Part shown: positions 18,558 through 64,000 of the stretch, in pieces
How positions within the stretch are numbered: position 1 is the first letter of the stretch
Layout of the letters: each line of letters starts with the position of its first letter
Source: Cyanobacteriota bacterium
GTDB lineage: Bacteria > Cyanobacteriota > Cyanobacteriia > CACIAM-69d
Reading direction: 5' to 3'
Length of the DNA stretch: 64,000 nt
Assembly: GCA_022402445.1 (NCBI GenBank)
Contig: JAKRSF010000006.1
Location: 212,540 to 276,539, forward strand
The notes under the pieces: model-generated
The model's input: only the letters and a program-made list of their open reading frames with translations
Told to the model about the DNA's origin: nothing
Database searches by the model: none
Position numbers and translations under genes: made by a program

Positions 18558-19517
18558 CTAGGCCACCGATCGCAGGGCAAAGAACGTCGAATCCATCGAT
18601 CGCCCAATCCCATTGAGTTGCCCCTGGAGCCCATCGAGGAATTCATGGAGGCCGCGATCGATAATTTCATCCACCGCCACATAGCTCAGTTCCGCCAGCA
18701 GCCGCCCCAAGGGCCGCTCGACCGGATTGCGCCAGGTGCCCGCCGGGGTGCCCGTGATGTGGTGGAGCGATCGCTGGGCCTCGATCAAACAAAACTGAAT
18801 GGCGCGGGGGAACGTCCGATCCAGCACTAAAAATTCCACCACCCCCGTCGGCGTAATCCGATGGAACGTCCGCTTGCGGTACATTTCATAGGCACTGGCG
18901 GACTTGAGTAGGGCCATCCACTGCAACTGATCCAGCGTGGTGCCCACATCCTGCGGCGACGGCAGCAAAATGTAATATTTCACATCTAGGATGCGTGAGG
19001 TTTTGTCCGCCCGCTCCAGAAATCGCCCGATGCGGCCAAAGTGCCAGCCTTCGCCGTGGGTCATGGTGGCATCCATAATGCCGCTGAACAGGTGGCTGGC
19101 GGACTTCACTTCCGTGAAAAAACGATCCAGATCCACGGGATTTTGGGAATTGGCGATCGCGGCATCCTGCACCAGGTGATAGAACGCATTGATCTGTTCC
19201 CACATCTCCGAGGAAATGATCTCCCGCACCGATCGCGCATTCTCCCGCGCCGCCCGCAGGCAACTGGCGATCGAGTTGGGGTAGTCGCGATCGAAGGCCA
19301 GAAATTGGATGGCATTGGCATCGGTGACGGTGCCGTAGCGCTGGGTGAACCGGTCCAGATCGCCGGTGGTTTCGATCAGCGGTGCCCACTGTTGCGGTAG
19401 GCCGTTGGGGCCATCAAGGGTAAGTTTGAGGTTCACATCGATGAAGCGGGCCACATTTTCCGCCCGTTCGATGTAGCGATTGAGCCAATAGATAGAGTCG
19501 GCGACGCGGCTGAGCAT
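18558..19517 (-). CDS. Alpha-E domain protein (DUF403)
   Basis: A 319-residue all-helical protein starting MLSRVADSIYWLNRYIERAENVARFIDV, the signature of the alpha-E (DUF403) family. In many bacteria such genes lie beside circularly permuted ATP-grasp and transglutaminase-like genes and are thought to join in peptide synthesis or modification. Those neighbours are absent here. The protein is predicted cytoplasmic and full length, and its biochemical role is not known. It is convergent with the repeat-rich secreted protein gene, about 100 bp away. Confidence 0.85.
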   Translation of the reverse strand: MLSRVADSIYWLNRYIERAENVARFIDVNLKLTLDGPNGLPQQWAPLIETTGDLDRFTQRYGTVTDANAIQFLAFDRDYPNSIASCLRAARENARSVREIISSEMWEQINAFYHLVQDAAIANSQNPVDLDRFFTEVKSASHLFSGIMDATMTHGEGWHFGRIGRFLERADKTSRILDVKYYILLPSPQDVGTTLDQLQWMALLKSASAYEMYRKRTFHRITPTGVVEFLVLDRTFPRAIQFCLIEAQRSLHHITGTPAGTWRNPVERPLGRLLAELSYVAVDEIIDRGLHEFLDGLQGQLNGIGRSMDSTFFALRSVA

Positions 19518-60818: not shown

Positions 60819-61541
60819 ATGGGGGCTGAAACGGCGCGGGGGGGGGCGATCGCGGGGCCGGGGGAGTCTGATCGCGCCAAATGTCAAGACTGTTGGTGTT
60901 GGCGGCTGGGGGTGGTGCCCTATCGGGTGGCCTGGGGCTGGCAGCGGCATTTGTTGGCCCTTCGTAAGGAAAATGCAATGTTGCCGGATGGGCTGCTGCT
61001 GTTGGAGCATCCGCCGACCTACACGTTGGGGAAGGGGTCGGATGAGGGTTTTGTGAAGTTTGATCCGGTGGCGGAAAATCTGGATTTAGTGCGGATCGAA
61101 CGGGGGGGTGAGGTGACCTACCATGGGCCAGGGCAGTTGGTGGGTTATCCGATTTTGAATTTGCAGCGCCATCGACCGGATTTGCACTGGTATTTGCGAT
61201 CGCTCGAAGGGGTGATTATTGATGCGATCGCGACCTTTGGCCTGCGGGGGGAGCGGATCGATGGCCTGACGGGGGTGTGGGTGGAAGGCTATAAAATTGC
61301 GGCGATCGGTATCAAGGTGAGCCGCTGGATTACGATGCACGGCTTTGCCCTGAATGTATGCCCGGATTTGGCGGGGTTTGGGCGGATTGTGCCCTGTGGC
61401 ATTGGCGATCGCCCGGTGGGCAGTTTGCAGCAGTTTTGTCCCGGCATTGAGATGGGGGCGGTGCGATCGGCGGTGGAGCGATCGTTTGAGGCGCGGTTTA
61501 ATTTATCTCTGGTGCCCGGTCCCGCCGATGCCCTGCGGTAG
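60819..61541 (+). CDS. lipB: Octanoyltransferase LipB
   Basis: A 240-residue LipB, which moves octanoate from acyl carrier protein to lipoyl domains. Motifs: [38 protein letters not shown] with the catalytic Lys, [11 protein letters not shown] and [14 protein letters not shown] with the catalytic Cys. The first ~30 residues (Gly/Ala/Arg-rich) are unlike other LipB and may reflect a wrong start; no better ATG or GTG lies closer to the conserved [12 protein letters not shown]. The TAG stop lies inside the left arm of the inverted repeat element that follows. Confidence 0.95.
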
Positions 61542-61784
61542 GGTGCGATCGGTCATGTTTGAATCAACGCGATCGCGCCTCCTTTCCGAACGCACCGGCA
61601 CCGTTTAAATTCACCGAAATGTTGTCGATGGTAACCGCGATCGCGATGAACCAACATTCATCTATTTCAAACGCACCGGCACGGTTTAAATTAATCGAAA
61701 TCTCTGGTGATGATTCCACATCGACGGTGCGTTCGGAATAGGGAGATGATCGCAAAATATCAACGGCACCGAACGCACCCTACC
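61537..61784. mobile_element. MITE-like inverted-repeat element after lipB
   Basis: GGTAGGGTGCG (61537-61547) and CGCACCCTACC (61774-61784) are a perfect 11-bp inverted repeat bounding 248 bp. A second 11-bp inverted pair lies inside: CCGAACGCACC (61586-61596) and GGTGCGTTCGG (61726-61736). The left end overlaps the lipB stop codon. GTAGGGTGCG/CGCACCCTAC ends are common in dispersed cyanobacterial repeats. No transposase is encoded, so it would depend on one in trans. Target duplications were not obvious. Confidence 0.55.
61590..61701. repeat. 31-bp direct repeats within the element, 81 bp apart
   Basis: 61590-61620 and 61671-61701 match at 28 of 31 positions and share the core ACGCACCGGCAC and GTTTAAATT. 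The spacing of 81 bp keeps the reading frame. Probably an internal duplication of the element. Confidence 0.75.
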
Positions 61785-61800: not shown

Positions 61801-61815
61801 CCGCGCAAAGCGCGG
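61801..61815. repeat. CCGCGC-AAA-GCGCGG hairpin downstream of the caspase-FGE gene
   Basis: A perfect 6-bp GC stem with a 3-base loop, 50 bp past the stop of the minus-strand caspase-FGE gene. Read on the minus strand it is followed by ACAATTTT, so it may be a weak terminator. GC stems downstream of variable regions also occur in DGR loci. Confidence 0.6.
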
Positions 61816-61864
61816 TGGGAAGAGGGAAAGAAGAGAAAAAAGAAATAGAGAGAAATGGTCCTGG

Positions 61865-63907
61865 CTAGGGCAGCAACACAACCCGAAAACCGAAGGAGTT
61901 GAAGATGTCGCCTGCCCCCCACCCGAGGCGAGCCGCGCAACGGCAACCCAACGGATCGTCGGACCACGAACCACCGCGCAGGAGCTTTTCTTGACTTTTC
62001 TTAGTGCTTCCTAAAGCCTTGAAAAAAGACTCTAAGTAGCCTTCAAGTTTAATTGTCTCACAAAAAGCTTGAGAATGATTATTCTTGTCTAGCCATGCTT
62101 CCGAATGGCTGGGAGCATTGGTGTAAGTATTGTGCCAATCATCCAGGCACCATTCCCACACATTGCCGTGGACATCCTGGAGGCCAAAGCCATTGGCCGG
62201 AAACTGGCCCACAGGGCTGGTGCGTTGGCGGTATTCTCCCTTGGGGCCGTTGGCGTACGTGGAGTTGCCGTCGTAGTTCGCCAAGCCAGTGGTGAGGGTT
62301 TCCCCAAAGGCAAAGGGCGTCTTGGTGCCGCCTCGGCAAGCATACTCCCATTCCGCCTCCGTGGGCAGGCGATAGGTTTTTCCCGTCGCCGTCGCCAAAC
62401 GGGCACAAAATTCTAGCGCATCAAACCAATTCACCCGCTCCACCGGCCCCCCTAGGTCTTTCCAGTTTGAGGGATCCGCCTTCAGTTGCGGATTCAGCAC
62501 TGCCGGAAAATCGCCCGCCACCCGTCGCCATTGGGCCACCGTCACCGGATAGCGCCCCACCAGCAGCGGCGGCACCGTTACGGTCCGCACTGGCTCCTCA
62601 CCACCATCGCGCCCCGCTTCCGTATCCGGTGAACCCATCTGGAACTGTCCACCGGGCACCGCCACCAGTTCCAGCGACACCCCCTCCCCCAAATCTACAA
62701 AGTGGGACCGGGCCGTTTTTTGCAGCCGTTCCACCACCTGGCCCTTTGCATCCACCCGCACCGTCTCGAAGCACCATTCCTTCAAATCCCACCCATCAAA
62801 CGGGTCCGGCGGCTTCGGCAATGGTTGAATCTTGCGAGAACGGATTTTCATGGCTGCCGCAATTGACTTTTTTCTGACAGCTTCTTTTTCTTCTTTCCTG
62901 ATGTCTTCAATTGTTTTTTTCTGAAGACCTTCTTCTAAGGTAATTCTCGTAATTCGTTGAATAATTCCCTCAACTTCTTGACGGGCTTCCTCATGAGCCG
63001 GATTCGCCTCTAGAACCTGCCACCAATACGCTTTCGCTATCTCTAATCTCTCAAGATTATATTGATTTTTGAACAGATCAAACGCCGCCCGTTCCGCTCG
63101 CCGCGCCCGTTGCACCAACTCTGTCAAATCCGGCAGTTGCGGCGAACTCTGCACATTAGGCAAAGCCGGAAGTTGCCATAATAAATCCCCCTCAACCTGC
63201 ACCATGGGACGTTGATCCGGCTTTCCATATTCTCGACAAAGTTGAGGCACCTTTTGACACAAGTAGTCACTCAACTCTCGAATTGTTGGATAGGCATCCT
63301 TTCGATCCATGGCCTTCAGGAGCGCATAGGTAAATGCCCCATGGCGGACCTTCTCATGGTCAATTTCATAGGACTTTTGATCCTTATCGCAGGCAAACAG
63401 GGTCACCACCCCTTCATAATTTCCCTGCAATCCCCCATCGCCAAAGCCGCGCCCCCCATCACTGTCGCGACAAGCATCTAGACAAAGGATGATATTGCTA
63501 GCGCCCGTTTCTCGGAGTCTCCTAACAACATCCTGCACCTTGATCCAGGTCCGCCCCACCTGAATCCCCGCATCATGGGGCAATAAATAATCTTCCCAGC
63601 ATCCTTCCTGATTGGGATCTTCTGTACGTTTGCCATGGCCCGCAAAGAAAAACCAGATCACATCGTCAGGATTGAGTTGATAGGTCGGGATTACCTCATC
63701 GATATAGTGCGACAGCGACCCCAGCCGCACCCGATCATCATTCAACCGATGCGAAAAATGGGTAATCAGATCCACATGCTCAAATCCCGCCCGACACATT
63801 GCGCCATAGAGTTCTAGGGCATCGCGTTCGGCATAGTTCAGATTACTAATCTGCCCATGGGAGTACTGATTAATGCCAACTACGATCGCGTAATGCCGAC
63901 TGCCCAT
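61865..63907 (-). CDS. Caspase-family protease fused to FGE-sulfatase/C-type-lectin-fold domain (candidate DGR target)
   Basis: A 680-residue protein. Residues 1-~250 are a caspase/metacaspase (C14) domain: YAIVVGINQYSHGQISNLNY, His91 in WFFFAGHGK and Cys146 in LCLDACRDSD, the catalytic dyad. A charged helical linker follows (~270-400; QRARRAERAAFDLFKNQYNL, KKTIEDIRKEEKEAVRKK). Residues ~410-680 form a formylglycine-generating-enzyme-like (FGE/SUMF1) domain: SLELVAVPGGQFQMGSPDTE, PVTVAQWRRV, YRLPTEAEWEYACRGG, GLQDVHGNVWEWCLDDW and finally LLRGGSW...GFRVVLLP. In cyanobacteria this domain often serves as a ligand-binding fold rather than an enzyme. The C-terminal part looks like a diversified DGR variable region. 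GC content and HIP1 density are below those of the neighbours. Confidence 0.92.
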   Translation of the reverse strand: MGSRHYAIVVGINQYSHGQISNLNYAERDALELYGAMCRAGFEHVDLITHFSHRLNDDRVRLGSLSHYIDEVIPTYQLNPDDVIWFFFAGHGKRTEDPNQEGCWEDYLLPHDAGIQVGRTWIKVQDVVRRLRETGASNIILCLDACRDSDGGRGFGDGGLQGNYEGVVTLFACDKDQKSYEIDHEKVRHGAFTYALLKAMDRKDAYPTIRELSDYLCQKVPQLCREYGKPDQRPMVQVEGDLLWQLPALPNVQSSPQLPDLTELVQRARRAERAAFDLFKNQYNLERLEIAKAYWWQVLEANPAHEEARQEVEGIIQRITRITLEEGLQKKTIEDIRKEEKEAVRKKSIAAAMKIRSRKIQPLPKPPDPFDGWDLKEWCFETVRVDAKGQVVERLQKTARSHFVDLGEGVSLELVAVPGGQFQMGSPDTEAGRDGGEEPVRTVTVPPLLVGRYPVTVAQWRRVAGDFPAVLNPQLKADPSNWKDLGGPVERVNWFDALEFCARLATATGKTYRLPTEAEWEYACRGGTKTPFAFGETLTTGLANYDGNSTYANGPKGEYRQRTSPVGQFPANGFGLQDVHGNVWEWCLDDWHNTYTNAPSHSEAWLDKNNHSQAFCETIKLEGYLESFFKALGSTKKSQEKLLRGGSWSDDPLGCRCAARLGWGAGDIFNSFGFRVVLLP
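61892..61963 (-). other. Candidate DGR variable region (VR) core
   Basis: Codons 649-672 of the caspase-FGE gene lie between the conserved RGGSW and GFRVV. Related cyanobacterial sequences have mostly Asn (AAC/AAT) here. This one has Ser-Asp-Asp, Leu-Gly, Cys, Ala, Leu-Gly-Trp-Gly and Ile-Phe-Asn-Ser-Phe, changes reachable by replacing A in Asn- or Lys-type codons while C, G and T stay. The gene ends ~8 codons later, as in typical DGR targets. Confidence 0.6.
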
Positions 63908-64000
63908 GGGGAGAAGAGTGTGTGAAATGGAGGGGGCGCGTTAGGGGATTTTAGCCCGCATCCTGGGGCGATCGCTTGAATTTGAGCTTAATCGACCCCA

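Follow-up and report, generated by a model that had tools for sequence, protein, structure and literature searches.

Among the variable proteins of cyanobacterial diversity-generating retroelements (DGRs) are some that begin with an orthocaspase and end in a CLec domain (Vallota-Eastman et al. 2020, PMC7517822), and conflict systems are another setting in which DGR lectin domains have been placed (Dore et al. 2024, PMC10907252; Kaur et al. 2020, PMC7159879). The gene described here lies in a window of 64,000 nucleotides (the whole stretch of DNA that was analysed) from the genome of a Cyanobacteriota bacterium, and it shares with the orthocaspase proteins both the architecture and the placement of the variable region (VR), which is C-terminal and lies in an FGE/CLec fold. 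It also resembles all3226 of Nostoc PCC 7120, a target without a reverse transcriptase (RT) that retains remnant homology (PMC7517822); however, the genome carrying all3226 has two DGRs, whereas no RT, template repeat (TR) or TR-spacer RNA (see below) was found in the window's genome. As in the VMAP/MoxR ternary systems, a lectin-fold VR sensor is combined with peptidase effectors and small adaptor genes (PMC10907252, PMC7159879), but the window gene is accompanied by a Pepco adaptor alone and the two VR-bearing FGE loci of its genome are both DGR-less. Two further points of comparison are TvpA of Treponema denticola (2y3c), a relative of the window FGE domain with a C-terminal DGR VR, and the BPP-1 system (Mtd), in which, as in the window, a hairpin follows the VR. 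TvpA and Mtd are surface or phage-tail proteins, whereas the window domain forms part of a caspase fusion. The literature on cyanobacteria already contains both caspase-lectin DGR targets and RT-less remnants, and the window gene fits these descriptions.

Architecture of the caspase-FGE protein

The first-pass annotation of the window had described a caspase-FGE protein that ends in a lectin-type region, and the open reading frame proved real, with Peptidase_C14 and FGE-sulfatase domains recognized by Pfam (Table 1). Both residues of the caspase dyad are present, i.e. the His of AGHGKR (91) and the Cys of LDACR (146) (GHG at 90, DACR at 144), and the caspase domain is therefore probably catalytically competent, as judged from these motifs. 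In Foldseek searches the N-terminal part matched the MALT1 caspase domain and the C-terminal part matched PvdO, TvpA and FGE; TvpA is related to the FGE domain by sequence as well as by fold. The AlphaFold model (mean pLDDT 82, pTM 0.51) consists of two domains that are predicted with confidence over most of their length; confidence is low at residues 609-637, immediately ahead of the VR. The two active-site cysteines of FGE, as in the human enzyme, belong to the GGS...AAR segment; they seem absent from the protein, and this apparent absence suggests binding instead of catalysis. The FGE domain is probably a binding domain and not an enzyme.

According to the Pfam and structure matches, the VR forms the C-terminal end of the C-type-lectin/FGE-fold domain. 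The last 39 residues of the protein read LLRGGSW-SDDPLGCRCAARLGWGAGDIFNS-FGFRVVLLP-stop, so the shell RGGSW...GFRVV is intact, as had been annotated, and the residue numbers given for the varied positions between its two halves (649-672) are correct, being the exact span of the codons that contain A in the TR of the related genome G004.

The caspase-FGE gene is preceded by the gene of the Pepco adaptor (domain PF24393, E 2e-24 and 7e-26), and this gene pair, in the same order, is common to the window's genome and G004.

Table 1. Positions of the caspase-FGE gene, its parts and the adjoining features in the window
Feature	Position	Strand	Evidence or remark
Caspase-FGE protein, 680 aa, DGR-type variable protein	61865-63907	minus	ORF, Pfam, 66% identity to orthologue in G004
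Peptidase_C14 (caspase) domain, residues 4-237	63197-63898	minus	Pfam, E 9e-19
FGE-sulfatase / C-type-lectin-fold domain, residues 413-677	61877-62671	minus	Pfam, E 2e-47
VR, gapless 124-nt homology to G004 TR (L140:10949-11072)	61861-61984	minus	A changed 20/28, other 18/96
Variable codons, residues 649-672, 17 with A in G004 TR	61892-61963	minus	
Polypyrimidine tract directly 3' of VR (sense)	61817-61855	minus	Best 40-nt window 0.95 pyrimidine
GC hairpin CCGCGC-TTT-GCGCGG beyond the tract	61801-61815	minus	Stem same in G004 and G005
Pepco adaptor gene, 3' end (127 aa, runs past the window end)	63951-64000	minus	L145:7991-8374

Comparison with the intact cassette of a relative

G004 represents the same family as the window's genome and a different genus. 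In it, an RT gene begins approximately 470 nt past the stop codon of the caspase-FGE orthologue and is followed by a second copy of the orthologue's 3' end, the TR, of 124 nt. All differences between the G004 VR and its own TR fall on A positions (14 of 28 A, 0 of 96 others), and the RT carries the motif GLPIGNLTSQ, which has the DGR-type [ILV]GxxxSQ form; these features mark the G004 orthologue as a standard DGR target whose RT and TR lie in cis. QGxxxSP, which had been annotated as the DGR RT motif, is the motif of other RTs, and that statement was wrong. NCBIfam and PADLOC returned general RT and caspase matches only.

Alignment of the window VR with the G004 TR revealed 124 nt of homology without gaps, extending 4 nt beyond the stop codon. 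Of the 28 A positions 20 differ, against 18 of the 96 remaining positions (Fisher p 3.9e-7). Outside the VR, the FGE domain differs from that of the G004 orthologue at 66 of 166 A and 124 of 512 non-A positions. The 17 codons with A in the TR are 649-651, 653, 654, 659, 661-664 and 666-672, and their third base is C or T in 13 (the annotated preponderance of such codons is thus borne out) and G in the remaining 4. Relative to the TR, these codons are changed 14 times at the first base, 8 times at the second and twice at the third, whereas in the rest of the gene, compared with the G004 orthologue over 640 codons, the corresponding numbers are 172, 114 and 332. When only amino-acid-changing codons are considered, a third-base difference is seen in 2/14 of those in the VR and in 139/213 of those elsewhere in the gene (p 2e-4). 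Mutagenesis at A of AAC, AAT and AGG template codons yields such third-base retention, which ordinary fast evolution does not predict. Identical residues in orthologues had been named as grounds for doubting that the positions are variable, and the relatives do in fact differ there.

DGR loci were gathered from G004, L017, L020, L021, L038, L039, L045, L138 and L139; their VR/TR pairs show 0-1 non-A mismatches, and a second, more diverged target of L017 shows 12. A pyrimidine tract was observed after the VR in all 11 proven VRs (cyanobacterial targets with a local TR) and after no TR. Over 40 nt, the pyrimidine fraction is 0.82-1.0 behind proven VRs and 0.50-0.57 behind TRs, and among other gene ends 1.3% reach at least 0.8. 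The 3' continuation is GGAC in most VRs and GCAC or GCGC in TRs. The window VR keeps the GG boundary, the tract and the CCGCGC/GCGCGG hairpin, which are target-side elements that TRs lack. The tract is possibly a target-site signal, and no mention of it was found in the literature searched. The hairpin, which differs from its G004 and G005 counterparts in the loop alone, is a candidate target-recognition hairpin by analogy with BPP-1, where a hairpin downstream of the VR is required (PMC3240598); a terminator is equally possible, the two being indistinguishable from sequence. In BPP-1 the hairpin lies within 24-35 bp after the VR (PMC3240598), whereas that of the window is approximately 45 bp off, beyond the pyrimidine tract.

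Missing element and origin of the variable region

The genome to which the window belongs (4.08 Mb in 13 contigs, estimated 99.93% complete) gave no match to the RVT_1 profile (PF00078), which does match three genomes used as controls and 28 of the 59 searched as relatives, and the DGR RT of G004 as a protein query also found nothing in it. With the VR, the G004 TR and the predicted TR of the window VR as DNA queries, the VR itself was the only sequence recovered; the covariance model of the TR-spacer RNA had no match at E 10, and a search for near-identical plasmid DNA gave none. The annotated lack of RT and TR in the window therefore holds for the whole genome, which is without a complete active DGR cassette, RT and TR both being missing, within the limit that, in an assembly of 13 contigs, such searches would miss an element lost to collapse at a gap or carried by an unassembled plasmid. 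The first-pass annotation had proposed a genome-wide search for an RT and a template and had counted the lack of a template against its own reading of the gene as a DGR target, and neither was found. One part of that reading stands, since the VR is of DGR type by the signature of the G004 TR; the other, that the receptor is hypervariable at present, is not supported, as no TR, RT or TR-spacer RNA was found in the genome.

The window gene is probably an orphaned DGR target whose VR was shaped by a DGR that it no longer has, the element having been lost or left behind. The evidence for a DGR origin of the VR is good; present hypervariation is not supported, and the recognition surface looks frozen in the one genome of the species examined. 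It counts against an orphaned target that the template of its VR is deduced from another genus, and the 18 of 96 non-A differences show that TR or VR has diverged in the meantime. The ancestor would have lain within a DGR cassette composed, as in G004, of the Pepco adaptor, caspase-FGE, RT and TR. In copying the RNA of the TR, the RT would have put random bases at A, and the surface loops of the lectin fold would have been rewritten when the cDNA took the place of the gene's 3' end. In the lineage of the window, RT and TR would then have been lost, or the target pair moved off, leaving one fixed variant subject to ordinary mutation. The fixed lectin-fold domain may now bind a ligand (perhaps a phage or stress signal) and turn on the fused caspase, with Pepco as a partner. 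We infer the order of loss, the ligand and the activation of the protease, the receptor-to-protease mechanism being proposed from the architecture.

The window gene is flanked by lipB and smpB, whereas the G004 cassette is flanked by an alpha-E gene and gnd, and the window's alpha-E gene (18558-19517) is 42 kb off. That a cassette of the G004 type was simply deleted in place here was considered and is not supported, because the flanking genes are unlike those of G004; no RT remnant was found. The 320 nt separating the caspase-FGE gene from lipB are mostly filled by a MITE-like element (61537-61784) with 17-nt terminal inverted repeats (94% complementary). Both the different locus and the adjoining inverted repeat would suit a variant of the orphaned-target reading, in which the already diversified gene pair was acquired horizontally, without its cassette, from a DGR-bearing cyanobacterium. 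This variant is rather unlikely: outside the VR the FGE domain is 79% identical to that of G004, which resembles the values for alpha-E (75%), hpf (76%) and LipB (62%), and transfer therefore need not be invoked.

Less probable again, and on balance improbable, is continuing diversification of the VR in trans by a DGR missing from the assembly (e.g. one on a plasmid or in a gap between contigs), even though diversification of remote targets has been reported in PB-PSB1 (PMC10907252) and deduced in cyanobacteria (PMC7517822), and the window has kept its VR boundary, polypyrimidine tract and hairpin. RT, TR and TR-spacer RNA are all lacking at the completeness given above. Moreover, of the two FGE proteins with VR-like ends encoded on contig 6 of the same genome, one had its VR used as a query, which found no template, and both have lost the pyrimidine tract. 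These two proteins belong, with VMAP-trypsin and a MoxR-like ATPase, to a ternary conflict locus without a DGR (L144:1183-7679). That a lectin-fold binding loop simply evolved fast in the ordinary way, with no part played by a DGR at any time, is very improbable, for while this loop is variable across many FGE proteins and A positions change above others in the rest of the gene too, the orthologue is a perfect DGR target, the third bases of the window codons are kept while first and second bases change, and the gapless TR alignment continues past the stop codon, where a 3' flank confined to VRs is found.

Template-adjacent RNA and DGR losses in other genomes

A structured RNA of approximately 155 nt was observed directly after the TRs of cyanobacterial DGRs (L140:11067-11217 and 18 further loci; alignment A4). 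Among 17 distinct sequences, two-sided changes occur in 30/40 pairs, 95.7% of cells are paired and the covariation score is 0.634 vs 0.276 in shuffles; this set was aligned to the model and hence leans towards it, but the nine-sequence set alone also gives 27/40 pairs and a score of 0.615 vs 0.300. A covariance model trained on nine loci matches outside its training set in G026, G011, G053, G010, L013 and L031 (E 1e-24 or better). No Rfam family matched in the three loci scanned, and no description was found in a literature search. The TR-spacer RNA is thus a candidate undescribed RNA part of cyanobacterial DGRs. The spacer RNA of BPP-1 serves the RT, and by analogy a similar role may be proposed here. 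Compared with the orphaned target, this covarying RNA may be the newer result, and its model is a tool that detects DGRs from RNA alone.

Losses of DGR parts were also recognized in other genomes and speak for an orphaned target in the window. G002, which is approximately 96% identical to G004 in nucleotides, lacks 5.3 kb at the site of the G004 cassette and keeps approximately 110 nt (L171:9341-9451, compared with L140:6813-12102 of G004, which contains Pepco, caspase-FGE, RT and TR). The remnant includes a stretch that reads NFGFRVVG-stop, followed by CCCTAGC, which is apparently the VR 3' end of a deleted target, and the site is an apparent scar of cassette deletion. G005 is RT-less and encodes a 976-residue protein with the same VR type, in which 15/28 A and 8/96 other positions differ. 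In G010, which belongs to the same class as the window's genome and has no RVT_1 match, the TR-spacer RNA (L186; G010:C1:3876319-3876472) adjoins a degraded-looking FGE gene and is an orphan template.

Beyond orphaning itself, it can tentatively be suggested that the receptor was domesticated, that is, that a DGR-made specificity in a caspase-linked sensor was fixed by selection and the diversifier discarded. If so, the active cassette of G004, the scar of G002, the orphan targets of G005 and the window's genome and the orphan template RNA of G010 would form a natural series within this cyanobacterial family, joined by G010 of the same class. A caspase-linked recogniser that retains the imprint of a DGR after the disappearance of the element lets one ask whether DGRs serve to arrive at a specificity that is afterwards preserved.
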